A stretch of 64,000 nt of DNA from NCBI GenBank assembly GCA_016218365.1, contig JACREF010000013.1:1-64000 (forward strand), read 5' to 3'. The stretch comes from Gammaproteobacteria bacterium (GTDB lineage Bacteria > Pseudomonadota > Gammaproteobacteria > SZUA-140). Every line of letters starts with the position of its first letter. The stretch's first letter is position 1. The notes under the pieces are model-generated. The model saw only the letters and a list, made by a program, of their open reading frames with translations, was not told the DNA's origin and searched no databases. A program made the translations under genes and the position numbers. This document shows positions 26,185 through 58,901 of this stretch, piece after piece.

Positions 26185-27738
26185 GTGCCGATACCCAGGT
26201 CCCTGGACAGCACGCCCTGGCAGTTGATTGTTGCCCTGCTGGCCGGCCTGATGATGCCGCTGGCCCATGCCCCGTTTGCCATTTCTCCACTGGCCATTCT
26301 TTCCCTGGCGGCGTTGTTTATATTGTGGACGCGCGTCACGGTGCGCCGTGCCCTGTTGCTGGGTTATGTGTACGGGGCCGGGATGTTTGGTGCCGGTGTC
26401 AGCTGGGTGTTTGTCAGCATCTACGGCCATGGCGGCGTCCCGCTGTTGCTGTCAGTGGTGCTCACGGTGATGTTTGTGCTGTTTCTGGCGCTGTTTCCAG
26501 CGGTGGTGGGCGCGGCATGCGCCGCCTTGGTGAGGGGGGCGCCGCCGCAGGTATTTGCCTACATCCTGATACTGGCCCCGGCCGCGCTGTGGGTGCTCGG
26601 GGAGTGGGTCAGGGGTTGGCTGCTGACAGGATTTCCCTGGCTGGTGACCGGCTATAGCCAGATCGATACCCCGCTGTCCGGGCTGGCCCCGCTGCTGGGC
26701 GTCTACGGGGTCTCGCTGGCAGTAGGCCTGTCCGCTGCGACGCTGTCGTTGCTGTCATGGCCCCATCTGCGGCGCCAGCGTCCGGCGTTGATTATGATGG
26801 CCATCGTTGCTGCAACCTGGGCGCTGGGGATGGTTGCAGGCAGTTATCAATGGGGGGAGGCGTCGGGCGATCCGGTCAGGGTCAGCCTGGTTCAGGGCAA
26901 TATCTCGCAGGATGTCAAATGGCTGCCGGCGATACGCGAGCTGACCTTGGAGCGTTATGTAACGATGACCCGTCAGCAGCCGGACAGTCAGCTGATCGTC
27001 TGGCCGGAGACGGCGATACCGGCCTATTACCATGAGGCCAGGCCGTTTCTGGACTGGATGCACGCCAATCTGGTTCCGGAGGGCGGCGCCATCCTGACCG
27101 GACTGATATATAAAGAGCCCGGGAGCGGGGCGTATTACAACACCGTGCTGGGCCTTGGCAGCACCGAGCAGTTTTATCACAAACATCACCTGGTGCCGTT
27201 CACCGAATACCTGCCGCTGAAGGGTGTATTGGGTAGCCTGATCGATGTGATGGACGTACCGATGTCGGACTTTTCTGCCGGCGCCGTCACCCAGCGGCCG
27301 CTGGCGGTGGCGGGACAGCATATCGGTGTGTCGATCTGTTTCGAGGATGCCTTTGGCGAGGAGGGCATCCGGCAGCTTCCTGAGGCGACGCTGCTGGTCA
27401 ATGTCAGCAATGATGCGTGGTTTGATCGCTCGGCGGCCCCACAGCAGCATCTGCAGATGGCGCGGATGCGTGCGCTGGAGACTGCGCGGCCGCTGTTACG
27501 TGCCACCAACACCGGGATGACGGCGATCATCGACGCCCGCGGTCGCTTGCAGCAGGTCGCGCCACAGTTTGCCGAGGCCGTACTGAGCGGTGAGATCCAG
27601 CCGCGCCAGGGCGCCACCCCGTATGTGATCATGGGCAACTATCCGGCAGTGACCGGGGCGGGTCTGATGCTGGCCCTGGTCGTGGTGTTGAGGCGCCGGG
27701 GCAGGACTCAGTCGCCTGCTGACTCGCCATCGTGTTGA
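26185..27738 (+). CDS. lnt: Apolipoprotein N-acyltransferase
   Basis: Inner-membrane enzyme that adds the third acyl chain to the N-terminal cysteine of lipoproteins. The 517-residue product has about seven to eight membrane segments (15-220 and one near the C-terminus) around a nitrilase-fold periplasmic domain with the triad Glu 275 (WPETAIP), Lys 333 (YHKHHLVPF) and Cys 385 (VSICFEDAFG). GTG start 12 bp after corC. It serves the lipoproteins LolB, LptE and others encoded in this window. Confidence 0.96.
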   Translation: MPIPRSLDSTPWQLIVALLAGLMMPLAHAPFAISPLAILSLAALFILWTRVTVRRALLLGYVYGAGMFGAGVSWVFVSIYGHGGVPLLLSVVLTVMFVLFLALFPAVVGAACAALVRGAPPQVFAYILILAPAALWVLGEWVRGWLLTGFPWLVTGYSQIDTPLSGLAPLLGVYGVSLAVGLSAATLSLLSWPHLRRQRPALIMMAIVAATWALGMVAGSYQWGEASGDPVRVSLVQGNISQDVKWLPAIRELTLERYVTMTRQQPDSQLIVWPETAIPAYYHEARPFLDWMHANLVPEGGAILTGLIYKEPGSGAYYNTVLGLGSTEQFYHKHHLVPFTEYLPLKGVLGSLIDVMDVPMSDFSAGAVTQRPLAVAGQHIGVSICFEDAFGEEGIRQLPEATLLVNVSNDAWFDRSAAPQQHLQMARMRALETARPLLRATNTGMTAIIDARGRLQQVAPQFAEAVLSGEIQPRQGATPYVIMGNYPAVTGAGLMLALVVVLRRRGRTQSPADSPSC

Positions 27739-27793: not shown

Positions 27794-27940
27794 CTAGCAG
27801 CTTGTTGAAAAACGCATCGGTGGATGCCAGGCAAGGCGAAAAATGGCGAAAAAGCGCAGTTTACCTGTAGTAAATGAGCATTTTGAGCCGTTTTTCAACG
27901 CAGCATGGCGCCTCCTAGGTGTTTTTCAACAAGCTGCTAG
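27794..27940. repeat. 147-bp palindromic element, copy 1
   Basis: Terminal inverted repeats of 20 perfect bases: CTAGCAGCTTGTTGAAAAAC (27794-27813) and its complement (27921-27940). The core, shared with 34343-34489, includes GCGAAAAAGCGCAGTTTAC and GTAAAT(G)AGCATTTTGAGC with a GTTTAC-N5-GTAAAT hairpin. No coding sequence. Lies between lnt and leuS. Similar palindromic elements are scattered in many gammaproteobacterial genomes; I know of no accepted name or function. Confidence 0.85.
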
Positions 27941-27950
27941 CCCCACTTAA

Positions 27951-31011
<3,061 letters not shown>

Positions 31012-33994: not shown

Positions 33995-34345
33995 ATGATA
34001 GCTGAACAAATGAGAGATCTGGCCGTCGCGGCACTCGAGGATGTGAAGGGGCGCGACCTGGCGGTGCTGGATGTGCGTGGCATGACCTCGATCACCGATT
34101 ACATGATCATCGCCAGCGCCACGTCGTCGCGGCATCTGAAGGCGCTGGCGGACAGTGTCCTGGACAAGGCGCAGCAGCATCAGCTGCGGCCATTGGGCTG
34201 CGAGGGTGAAAATGGCGGCGAATGGGCGCTGATCGATCTTGGCGATGTGATCGTCCATGTGATGACGCCGGAGATCCGTGATTTCTACCAGCTGGAAAAG
34301 TTGTGGGGCGAGGATGCGCCGGCGCTGGGTGCCGGACAGGGTTAA
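33995..34345 (+). CDS. rsfS: Ribosome silencing factor RsfS
   Basis: Binds uL14 on the 50S subunit and blocks subunit joining in stationary phase. The 116-residue protein shows the family region KGRDLAVLDVRGMTSITDYM and GCEGENGGEWALIDLGDVIVH. Its TAA stop (34343-34345) is the first three bases of the 147-bp element copy 2, so the element defines the 3' end of the gene. Confidence 0.95.
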   Translation: MIAEQMRDLAVAALEDVKGRDLAVLDVRGMTSITDYMIIASATSSRHLKALADSVLDKAQQHQLRPLGCEGENGGEWALIDLGDVIVHVMTPEIRDFYQLEKLWGEDAPALGAGQG

Positions 34346-34489
34346 CCGCTTGCCGAAAAACGTGATCAGGGGATGCAGCGCAAGGCGGCAACGGGCGAAA
34401 AAGCGCAGTTTACACGCAGTAAATGGGCATTTTGAGCACGTTGCCAACGCTGTGCGGCGCCCCTCAGTGCGTTTTTCGGCAAACGGTTA
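34343..34489. repeat. 147-bp palindromic element, copy 2
   Basis: Arms TAACCGCTTGCCGAAAAACG (34343-34362) and its near-perfect complement (34470-34489; 19 of 20 pairs). The arms differ in sequence from copy 1, yet stay self-complementary, while the core (GCGAAAAAGCGCAGTTTAC, GTAAATGGGCATTTTGAGC) is almost identical. It separates rsfS from rlmH and includes the rsfS stop codon. Confidence 0.85.
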
Positions 34490-34502
34490 GGGCTGAATCG
34501 CG

Positions 34503-34973
34503 ATGCGTATCCACCTGCTGGCAGTGGGCGAGAAGATGCCGGTCTGGGTCAGCCAGGGATATCAGGAGTACGTGCGGCGGCTGCCCGCGGACAATACCCT
34601 ATTGTTGCATGAGGTGAGCGCGGCGCGGCGCGGCAAGAACCCCGAGGTCGAACGCTGGAAACATCAAGAGGGCGAGCGCCTGCTGGCCGCGGTGCCGAAG
34701 GGGGCGCATGTCGTCGCGCTGGATGAACACGGCGAGGGCTGGACGACGCGCCAGCTGGCGGGCCGGCTCGAGGAATGGCGCCGACAGGGCAGTGATATCG
34801 CGTTGCTGGTCGGTGGCGCCGACGGCCTGTCGGCCGACTGTCTGCAGCAGGCGCGGCAGCGCTGGTCGTTGTCACCGCTGACCCTGCCGCATGCCCTGGT
34901 CAGGATCGTGCTCGCCGAGCAGCTGTACCGCGCCTGGACCGTGCTGCAGGGTCATCCCTATCACCGGGACTAG
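34503..34973 (+). CDS. rlmH: 23S rRNA pseudouridine1915 N3-methyltransferase RlmH
   Basis: SPOUT-fold methylase acting on the assembled 70S ribosome. A 156-residue protein with the knotted SAM site ([10 protein letters not shown], then [20 protein letters not shown]) and the C-terminal HPYHR motif. Normal length (155). maf follows after 4 bases. Confidence 0.96.
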
Positions 34974-52327: not shown

Positions 52328-52669
52328 TCCGTGTTGTTGTCATGCCCGCCCCCGATCGGAGTCGAGGGCAGGCTCCAGCGGGCATCCAGAAAGATCTGCA
52401 AGCACTGGATTCGCGCGGGCGCGGGAGTGACGGCTGTTGAAATTTTTGAGTTAGTCAGAGAGGAATGCTACTTACTTAAGGAGGTAGCCGGCGGGTAGCC
52501 TGGGTTGAGCGACAGCGAAACCCGGGTTTCACTCCGTTCAACCCAGGCTACCTCCTGGATTCCCGCGGGCGCGGGAGTGACGGCTGTTGAAATTTTTGAG
52601 TTAGTCAGAGAGTGCTGATGTGGGTTCATTGAGTAGAGGAGCGTGTGCAATGTTTCCGAGGACTGGCCG
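52328..52669. repeat. Nested repeats between hisH and hisA
   Basis: Two 57-bp direct copies (52406-52462 and 52556-52612; one mismatch) ending AGTTAGTCAGAGAG flank a 93-bp segment. Within that segment GGTAGCCTGGGTTGA (52494-52508) pairs with its perfect complement (52538-52552) around an inner 14-bp palindrome GAAACCCGGGTTTC (52517-52530). A further partial copy of hairpin material (GATCGGAGTCGAGGGCAGGC) lies at 52350-52385. No coding sequence. This looks like one repeat family inserted in or recombined with another. Confidence 0.8.
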
Positions 52670-56821: not shown

Positions 56822-56942
56822 GCTCTGATTAATTCAAAAATTACCACGGCCGTCATTCCCGCGAAAGCGGGAATCCAGGTATTACAGGTAGTTATGGATG
56901 CCCGCTTCCGCGGGCATGACGACAATGCGAATTAATCAGAGC
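56822..56942. repeat. 121-bp MITE-like element
   Basis: Terminal inverted repeats of 14 bp, GCTCTGATTAATTC (56822-56835) and GAATTAATCAGAGC (56929-56942), enclose two internal hairpins, ATTCCCGC/GCGGGAAT (56855-56874) and ATGCCCGC/GCGGGCAT (56898-56917). No transposase is encoded. The internal hairpins belong to the widespread CATTCCCGCGAAAGCGGGAAT family of proteobacterial repeats. A degenerate copy is at 1351-1427. Confidence 0.85.
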
Positions 56943-58901
56943 ATCCCTAAAGCAAATTCATTATTTTTTACTTTTCTCTGGCTCGCCCTGATGCTAAGTG
57001 GTTGTGGCGGTGGAGTGACCGGTGTTTTGAGTGGTGCGAATAGCGTGGTCAGCGGGGTGGTCAACAGTGTCCCGCCGGGCAAATGTCCAAGCGGCGGCAT
57101 TACCGTCAATTCAGGGATAGATTCGAATAGCAACAAGATCCTGGATGCTTCGGAAATCTCAACCACACAATATGTTTGCCATGGCACGAATGGGTCAGCA
57201 GGGTTGACATCATTGGTGTCTGCGACGGATGAGCCAAGTGGCGCCAATTGCGCAGACGGCGGCAAGAAGATCAATGTTGGTTTGGACGAAAACAGCAACA
57301 ATGTCCTGGATGCGAGTGAAATAGTCTCAACGGCCTACATATGTAACGGATCGAAAGCGGCCAATGGCACTAATGGCACTGACGGCACGAATGGAATAAA
57401 CGGTGCAAACGGCAGGGATGGCCACAATAGCTTGGTCAGCATAGTGCCGGAACCGGTTGATTCCTTCTATTGTAAGTATGGCGGCAATAAGGTCAGTAGT
57501 GGCCTGGATTCGAATGCTAATGGCGCGCTTGATGATCCTGAAGAAGTGATGGCCAGTTATTACGTTTGTAATGGTGCGCCGGGTGCTGCGGGGGCTGCCG
57601 GAGAGACGGGCGCCACAGGTCCGGCCGGAGCTACAGGCGCGACTGGTCCGGCGGGTCCTGCGGGGCCAGGTATAACGTGGGTCGATGTCACAGGCGCATC
57701 AGTTCAGGCGGAATCAAACAAGGGCTATATAGCCAACAGTGGTTCTCAAGTGACGATAACGCTGCCTCGGTCGCCGCTTTTTGGTGATCTTGTCCAGATA
57801 TCCGGTGCTGGCGCAGGTGGATGGAAGGTGGCGCAAAATGACGGCCAGTCAATCATAACCAAGAACGTTAGTATTGATTACGAACAATTATGGAAGTCAC
57901 GAGAGTCTCTGAGGGCATGGAATGTTATAGCGATGTCTTCTGATGGGGTTAAGGTAGTTGCTGCAGTCAGGGGAGGGCATATCTACACATCGGATGATTC
58001 CGGCGTGACATGGACTGAGAGGCAGCCCATTCCATCCGGAGGCTACTGGACGGCTGTTACCTCATCGTCTGATGGATCGATGCTGACTGCTGCTACAAAT
58101 GGACCTGAAGGCATATTCATCTCCTCGGATGCTGGAGCGACTTGGACGCATATTCTGGGGTCCCCTTCATCGATAGGGGCGCTTGCGGCATCCGCAGATG
58201 GAACAAAATTAGTTGCGACGGTGGGTGAGCAAAATAACCCAATATATACATCCGTGGATGCTGGCCTTAATTGGATAGCTCATAATGTTTCTGGGTTATC
58301 ATTTTACTCGGTCGCGTCCTCATCCGATGGATCCCGTCTTTTGGCGACATGTAAGACGCAAGATATTCAACCTATTAGCATGCTGTGTACGTCTGCAGAT
58401 TCCGGAGCTTCTTGGGTGACGCGAGAATCAGATAGAAACTGGTCATCAGTGGCATCATCTTCTGACGGCTCAAAACTCGTAGCAACTACTTCCGGAGGGA
58501 GCATATATACCTCCTCAGATTATGGCGTGAGCTGGGCACCGCATGGACGCAGTGGCCTTTGGATGTCAGTGGCATCATCGTCAGACGGTACAAAACTCGT
58601 CGCAGCTGAGCAGGGTTTTGGCGGTTATATGTATACCTCGAATGATTCAGGGAACAACTGGACAGTACGCTCATCGAATCGGTTATGGCGCTCAGTAGCA
58701 ACTTCCTCAGACGGCACACATTTGGCCGCCATAGAAGAGAATGGACATATTTATACTTCGCTTCCATTCAGTGATGGCGCTACAACAATAGGGCCTGCAG
58801 GGGCAATCATCGGTGCCCAATATGACACCGCCGATCTCCAATACATTGGCAACAATCAGTTCATGGTGCGTGGCTATATGGGTAATTTGTTGATTCAGTA
58901 A
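56925..58901 (+). CDS. Lipoprotein with Cys-framed Ca-loop repeats, collagen-like segment and beta-propeller
   Basis: A 658-residue surface-type lipoprotein. Lipobox LMLSGC (Cys 27). Three repeats (about 50-215), each framed by cysteines and with an EF-hand-like loop (IDSNSNKILDASEI, LDENSNNVLDASEI, LDSNANGALDDPEE), resemble DUF7151 modules. A collagen-like Gly-x-y run follows (about 218-245; GATGPAGATGATGPAGPAG). Then come about seven propeller blades (about 340-620) of the form SSSDG-x-KLVA...IYTS-x-D-x-G-x-x-W, as in BNR/sialidase-like folds. The DNA looks lower in GC than its neighbours, a sign of transfer. ATG 56925 (or in-frame ATGs at 56898 and 56916) lies inside the MITE-like element; no later start would keep the signal peptide. 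Confidence 0.7.
   Translation: MRINQSIPKANSLFFTFLWLALMLSGCGGGVTGVLSGANSVVSGVVNSVPPGKCPSGGITVNSGIDSNSNKILDASEISTTQYVCHGTNGSAGLTSLVSATDEPSGANCADGGKKINVGLDENSNNVLDASEIVSTAYICNGSKAANGTNGTDGTNGINGANGRDGHNSLVSIVPEPVDSFYCKYGGNKVSSGLDSNANGALDDPEEVMASYYVCNGAPGAAGAAGETGATGPAGATGATGPAGPAGPGITWVDVTGASVQAESNKGYIANSGSQVTITLPRSPLFGDLVQISGAGAGGWKVAQNDGQSIITKNVSIDYEQLWKSRESLRAWNVIAMSSDGVKVVAAVRGGHIYTSDDSGVTWTERQPIPSGGYWTAVTSSSDGSMLTAATNGPEGIFISSDAGATWTHILGSPSSIGALAASADGTKLVATVGEQNNPIYTSVDAGLNWIAHNVSGLSFYSVASSSDGSRLLATCKTQDIQPISMLCTSADSGASWVTRESDRNWSSVASSSDGSKLVATTSGGSIYTSSDYGVSWAPHGRSGLWMSVASSSDGTKLVAAEQGFGGYMYTSNDSGNNWTVRSSNRLWRSVATSSDGTHLAAIEENGHIYTSLPFSDGATTIGPAGAIIGAQYDTADLQYIGNNQFMVRGYMGNLLIQ

Follow-up and report, generated by a model that had tools for sequence, protein, structure and literature searches.

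ERIC sequences have served as typing markers for decades. They are described from Enterobacteriaceae and Vibrionaceae in the available text of PMC10969869, and the YPAL repeats are reported, in the available text of PMC2229807, to lack terminal inverted repeats (TIRs) and to be flanked by duplications of 3–26 bp. The literature searched, which included the accessible portions of PMC2229807, PMC2267715 and PMC10969869, held no description of the core letters or of the superfamily treated here, though relatives of ERIC may be described in Zo 2011 and in Wilson and Sharp 2006.

The 64,000-nt stretch of DNA analysed here (the window) carries two copies of a short element that resembles ERIC on the inside and IS5-family elements at its ends. 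At a probability of about 0.8, we regard it as a MITE of an ERIC-like superfamily that crosses phyla and combines a conserved inner hairpin with exchangeable IS5-type ends.

Results

The two copies in the window

Copy 1 (positions 27794–27940) lies between lnt, encoding apolipoprotein N-acyltransferase (26185–27738), and leuS, encoding leucine–tRNA ligase (27984–30479); copy 2 (34343–34489) lies between rsfS, encoding ribosome silencing factor (33995–34345), and rlmH, encoding a 23S rRNA methyltransferase (34503–34973). All four genes are on the plus strand and each copy is 147 bp long. The arms pair at 20 of 20 positions in copy 1 (27794–27813 with 27921–27940) and at 19 of 20 in copy 2 (34343–34362 with 34470–34489), and the coordinates, lengths and pairing given in a first-pass annotation of this DNA were all reproduced. 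A repeat finder gave arms of 30 nt with complementarity of 87% (copy 1) and 83% (copy 2), and a 97-nt direct repeat (77%) between the copies, while folding predicted one full-length hairpin for each, at −74.7 and −77.4 kcal/mol, respectively. The covariance model found six copies in the source genome (2.26 Mb in 33 contigs), and hundreds of places were found in other genomes, so that the element is no chance arrangement. BLAST in the source genome disclosed arm-only matches at three more places, on contigs C1, C9 and C22. Only two tRNAs exceeded the Rfam gathering score in the whole window and the elements had no match; in the copy 1 region a single sub-threshold match was seen.

Two other repeats were observed in the window. 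A dispersed family at 52377–52612, 1351–1429 and 56823–56906 occurs in both orientations, is 79–86% alike and has palindromes of the CCCGCG type, and a direct repeat at 58446–58733 has three copies spaced by 120–126 nt.

The outermost 4 nt of each arm, CTAG in copy 1 and TTAA/TTAG in copy 2, represent target-site duplications and are followed by about 17 nt of transposon terminal repeat. Copy 1, whose arm type has YTAR 4-mer flanks, is bounded by CTAG at 27794–27797 and 27937–27940; within lie the left TIR CAGCTTGTTGAAAAACG (27798–27814, plus strand), of a type also carried by an intact IS5-family IS, and the right TIR (27920–27936, minus strand), and between these the covarying core hairpin at 27831–27904 (plus strand; 93.7 bits with model R1 and E 2.7e-19 with R2). 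In copy 2 the left duplication TTAA (34342–34345) contains the stop codon of rsfS at 34343–34345, and the right one, TTAG (34487–34490), is one base off. The TIRs are CCGCTTGCCGAAAAACG at 34346–34362 (plus strand) and its partner at 34470–34486 (minus strand), and the core hairpin is at 34380–34453 (plus strand; R1 93.5 bits, R2 E 2.9e-18).

With a one-base shift, the arms of the two copies differ at three positions, and each of these has its match on the partner arm. The first-pass annotation had taken such changes as a sign that the folded form matters. Because TIRs and target duplications must match for reasons that act on the DNA, the arm changes alone imply no selection on the fold, and two copies by themselves are insufficient to show it; the importance of the fold itself was supported by the larger set of cores and by the strand-polarised wobble pairs described below.

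Mobility and candidate partner insertion sequences

At 147 bp the element has no room for a transposase and carries TIRs, and it is a mobile, non-autonomous element, that is, a MITE. Flanking 4-mers were identical in 23 of 43 elements of the GTTGAAAAA arm type, mostly as YTAR, compared with a mean of 7.3 and a maximum of 14 in 1000 shuffles. For the GAACCTGTT arm type, flanking 3-mers were identical in 14 of 24, mostly as TNA (1000 shuffles: mean 3.6, maximum 10). Both duplications, a check proposed in the first-pass annotation, thus exceeded every one of the 1000 shuffles, and the occurrence of different tips with different duplication lengths fits different transposases. Targets of the YTAR and TNA kinds are characteristic of groups within the IS5 family. 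Matches near contig ends, duplicates, low-scoring arm alignments and other arm types were dropped before counting, and 179 of 203 model matches were kept for the flank comparison and 152 for the gene-context count given below.

The rsfS–rlmH locus was compared in 16 relatives, one of which lacks rsfS, hence 15 were measurable. By eye, the element is absent from all 15, and the gap between the genes is −11 to 123 nt in the relatives versus 157 nt in the window.

An intact 1339-bp IS (L252) in Pseudomonas taeanensis MS-3 has the TIR CTAGCAGGCCGTTGAA on both sides, identical at 16 of 16 positions, and its transposase matches NF033581 (IS5 family) with 255.7 bits against a cut-off of 140. The same genome contains a core element (L099) with the same TIR. 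The interior of this IS has no core and is unrelated to the inside of the element, which, together with the conservation of the core across phyla, disposes of the possibility, raised in the first-pass annotation, of a decayed IS end. Likewise, an IS5-family IS of the source genome (L228; NF033581, 349 bits) has the TIR GGAACCTCTGATTAAT, matching the arms (TTAAGGAACCTCTGATTTATTC) of a core element in another genome (L017 in G052). On the strength of TIR identity and the target duplications, IS5-family transposases probably move these TIRs in trans. In the source genome no intact IS with the exact TIR of the window copies was found, its sole DDE_Tnp_1 match having a different TIR, and a search of genomes G040 and G187 for the TIR pair 1–2 kb apart, with up to one mismatch allowed, gave none. 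A full-length IS in which a transposase gene splits the core was also looked for; none was found, and the IS with matching TIRs, L252, has the unrelated interior noted above.

The source genome also holds a second MITE-like family, with the TIR CAGGCTGTTGAAAAACA and a different interior (L217 and L219–L227; contigs C1, C3, C7, C9, C21, C22, C23, C24 and C29). Around elements with CTACTGTGTCACAAAGCG arms, the two flanks are inverted copies of one another and vary between copies (targets like TARTYY-TA-RRAYTA), and these elements look inserted into the centres of palindromes (L019, L024, L035, L043, L079, L087, L174, L183 and L184).

Distribution of the core and probable exchange of the tips

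A DNA match to the element was found in 19 of 55 genomes of relatives, the source genome counted, and the same inner stretch occurs there between wholly different arms. In the wide searches at most 16–17 candidates were scored per genome, and the genome counts are lower bounds: R1 matched at least 116 of 274 Gammaproteobacteria and at least 36 of 296 Bacteroidota genomes, and R2 at least 95 of 299 genomes of the phylum of the window, 73 of these 95 lying outside its class. An exact pattern scan of named genomes gave at least 120 stretches. Pseudomonas, Chromobacterium, Nitrosomonas, Vreelandella (Halomonas group), Marinobacter, Undibacterium and Desulfobacterales are among the matches listed, as are, for Bacteroidota, Alistipes, Rikenellaceae and Bacteroidaceae. 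The Bacteroidota elements seen mostly have TIRs of the AGGGCACCTCTATTTATT type, closely resembling that of an IS (L230) from Pseudomonas chengduensis.

The cores typically sit between matched arms that have differing IS-type tips, with 4-bp YTAR or 3-bp TNA duplications. Three Pseudomonas pairs share 101, 104 and 103 of their 111 interior positions (91–94%), while the 17-nt tips agree at just 6–10; a fourth pair (L083/L173) has an interior insertion and is identical at 98 of 125 positions. Tips and duplication lengths differ around related cores, which suggests that the tips have been switched.

In Alistipes and relatives the element immediately follows a terminator-like hairpin that lies to one and the same side of the core (L093, L095, L097, L110, L111, L115, L123, L124, L130, L131, L140, L143, L148, L149 and L162), and several of these hairpins at separate loci are similar to one another. 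In three Alistipes-type elements (L098, L143 and L169) the 3’ half runs into other conserved sequence ending in GATAATTCGTTAGCGG, perhaps as a composite or longer element.

Covariation of the core

The core, the inner 74 nt, is an imperfect hairpin that covaries. In the alignment of 21 cores (A4) from which the covariance model R1 was made, 11 of 21 pairs have compensatory changes. Analysis of the collected copies for covariation, as proposed in the first-pass annotation, gave a strong signal in 51 diverse cores (A8, with L028 and L041 excluded together with L299, a row misplaced at a contig edge that had been dropped from A7). Here paired cells made up 90.8% versus 73.2% in shuffled alignments, changes on both sides were present in 193 cells versus 57.8, and the covariation score was 0.440 versus 0.146, falling to 0.055–0.122 with the 3’ side slid. 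The core is under selection for folding, and the claim that its sides change together holds at this level. Letters stay constant at two kinds of place: the internal loops, with GSAR on the 5’ side and TGA plus GA on the 3’ side, and the flanks of the stem, with CAAGGC and CAACGC.

The core has a conserved ATG/GTG, from which a small peptide might start, but this was rejected, as its frame runs for a mean of 16.2 codons to a stop, less than the 21.5 of a neighbouring frame (78 cluster representatives). In several copies an extra stretch of about 45 nt, capable of forming a hairpin, is present at the same point of the 5’ strand of the core (L081, L087 and L184; also L084).

Folding strand and gene context

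Mismatches left in the arms were counted after alignment with G·T and A·C given equal scores. Among cluster representatives (86 used of 101) there were 167 G·T/T·G versus 45 A·C/C·A, with more G·T in 62 elements and more A·C in 6; clustering removes shared ancestry only partly, and inherited arms are not fully independent in these counts. Counted by unique context in 66 elements, G·T outnumbered A·C by 57 to 26 among the 18 outermost pairs and by 64 to 10 further in. The polarity was weak in the modelled core stem (26 versus 18). As each G·T is an A·C on the complement, the strand written here is the one that folds, as RNA or as single-stranded DNA. The first-pass annotation had offered mobility or RNA as alternatives; the choice between them falls away, since the element is mobile, as the empty sites attest, and also has a single-strand structure.

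Outside Bacteroidota, 120 of 137 copies are intergenic by a home-made ORF caller, which misread the genes at L004. Copies also mostly lie closer to stops than to starts, with convergent neighbours outnumbering divergent ones at non-Bacteroidota loci (28 versus 17), and both window copies are between co-directional genes. This placement would suit an mRNA element kept by the host, a co-transcribed 3’-end hairpin tuning the decay of neighbouring messages, and such a role is in print for ERIC and YPAL in the available text of PMC2229807 and PMC10969869. Against it, orientation to genes at non-Bacteroidota loci is unbiased, with 33 (+,+) versus 42 (−,−), and presence at the orthologous site is patchy. 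Given this random orientation, action in cis on the neighbouring messages fails to explain the strand polarity, and we consider the mRNA explanation unlikely; a role for the element itself would account for the polarity more simply. Replication-strand bias was not seen in G193, on which the count rests with G140 and G295 left out; by hand count, its 45 copies divide into 21 versus 24 by leading-strand sense.

A further explanation for the compensatory look of the arms requires no selection. Long hairpins are known substrates of quasi-palindrome correction, in which template switching copies one arm to the other, and in elements with CTACTGTGTCACAAAG arms even the flanking bases match as inverted copies. 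This process, however, gives perfect pairs without strand preference, whereas the residual mismatches favour G·T over A·C by 64:10 in the inner arms, and the stems change while the loops stay constant. It was judged a rather improbable source of the pattern.

Relationship to ERIC

The same layered hairpin forms in ERIC loci from E. coli, Pantoea, Klebsiella and Kosakonia. With R1, E. coli ERIC, aligned in register, was the best match in 1288 bases (E 0.007 and 0.04). R2, which was built without ERIC, was run unfiltered over five ERIC loci and the whole window (66.6 kb). Four of the five loci were matched in register and ranked directly below the two window copies and above all other places in the window, with E-values, rough by the tool's own statement, of 4.1e-5 (L200), 0.018 (L198), 0.021 (L202) and 0.056 (L199), the next window match having 1.2. 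The Kosakonia locus (L201) had no R2 match in this run. L198 and L199 represent a single locus from two strains, which leaves three ERIC loci as independent support. We conclude, on good though not final evidence, that ERIC and the window-type elements share their core by descent.

Discussion

In the cross-phylum superfamily that we favour, IS5-family transposases would move the ends of the element in trans, inserting it at short targets that contain TA and are usually intergenic. Inside, the imperfect hairpin of about 74 nt folds from the strand written here, as RNA or single-stranded DNA. By keeping the inside and swapping the outer tips, related cores would come to use different IS5-type transposases. 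Given the random orientation to genes, the core would most likely serve not a neighbouring gene but the element that carries it, in the form of a folded transcript or of a single strand.

The simplest competing account is an ordinary MITE, in which IS5-family TIRs enclose inert filler, the arms matching for the sake of the transposase and the interior by recent descent. The IS5-type TIRs and target duplications are indeed there, and other MITE-like repeats of the source genome have the TIR CAGGCTGTTGAAAAAC around a different interior. Conservation across Pseudomonadota, Desulfobacterales and Bacteroidota nevertheless falls on the interior and not on the TIR, and this interior covaries strongly and is polarised by strand, leaving the ordinary MITE very improbable. 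Least probable is a folded recombination site like attC, recognised by the structure of one DNA strand. One strand does fold, the stem letters are free and a few unpaired bases are fixed, but DDE transposition fits the target duplications and the TIRs of IS5 type, and end boxes of the attC type were not seen by eye.

A bolder version of the superfamily reading is put forward tentatively. The core might be a transferable module of RNA or single-stranded DNA that is conserved across phyla and parasitises many IS5-type transposases through exchange of TIRs, with ERIC as one branch and the folded strand acting in the element's own cycle. Its transcript could, for example, bring the transposase to the element and so overcome the cis preference of IS transposases.

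The favoured reading would tie ERIC to a superfamily present in Pseudomonas, Chromobacterium, Nitrosomonas, Halomonas, Desulfobacterales and Bacteroidota, and it supplies candidate movers, namely IS5-family transposases with matching ends. It also turns the familiar logic of transposons around, as the ends that a transposase must recognise vary and the inside is fixed. The alignment is now deep enough for testing what the conserved loops bind.

Among known systems, MITEs of the IS5 family likewise have TIRs and target duplications of the YTAR or TNA kind. An ordinary MITE can do without its interior; here the interior is conserved and it is the TIR that can be exchanged. REP/REPIN with RAYT are also mobile, structured, short intergenic repeats, and differ from the window element in length and in its IS5-type TIRs. 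YPAL (RU-2, Yersinia) has a stable hairpin, target duplications and insertion beside dyad symmetry in common with the window family, which, unlike YPAL, has TIRs, a distinction that follows the description in the available text of PMC2229807. ERIC (IRU, RU-1; Enterobacterales and Vibrionaceae) is likewise an intergenic MITE, with the same layered hairpin and the same letter order, CAAGGCGG, GGAG, TAC-loop-GTA, TGA and CCAACGCAG. The stem letters differ, however, and the window family has IS5-type ends and occurs in many other lineages. ERIC ends in TATACCC..GGGTATA, whereas the window copies end in CAGCTTGTTG / CCGCTTGCCG with YTAR targets, and on account of these different termini the window elements are filed as members of an ERIC-like superfamily and not as ERIC.
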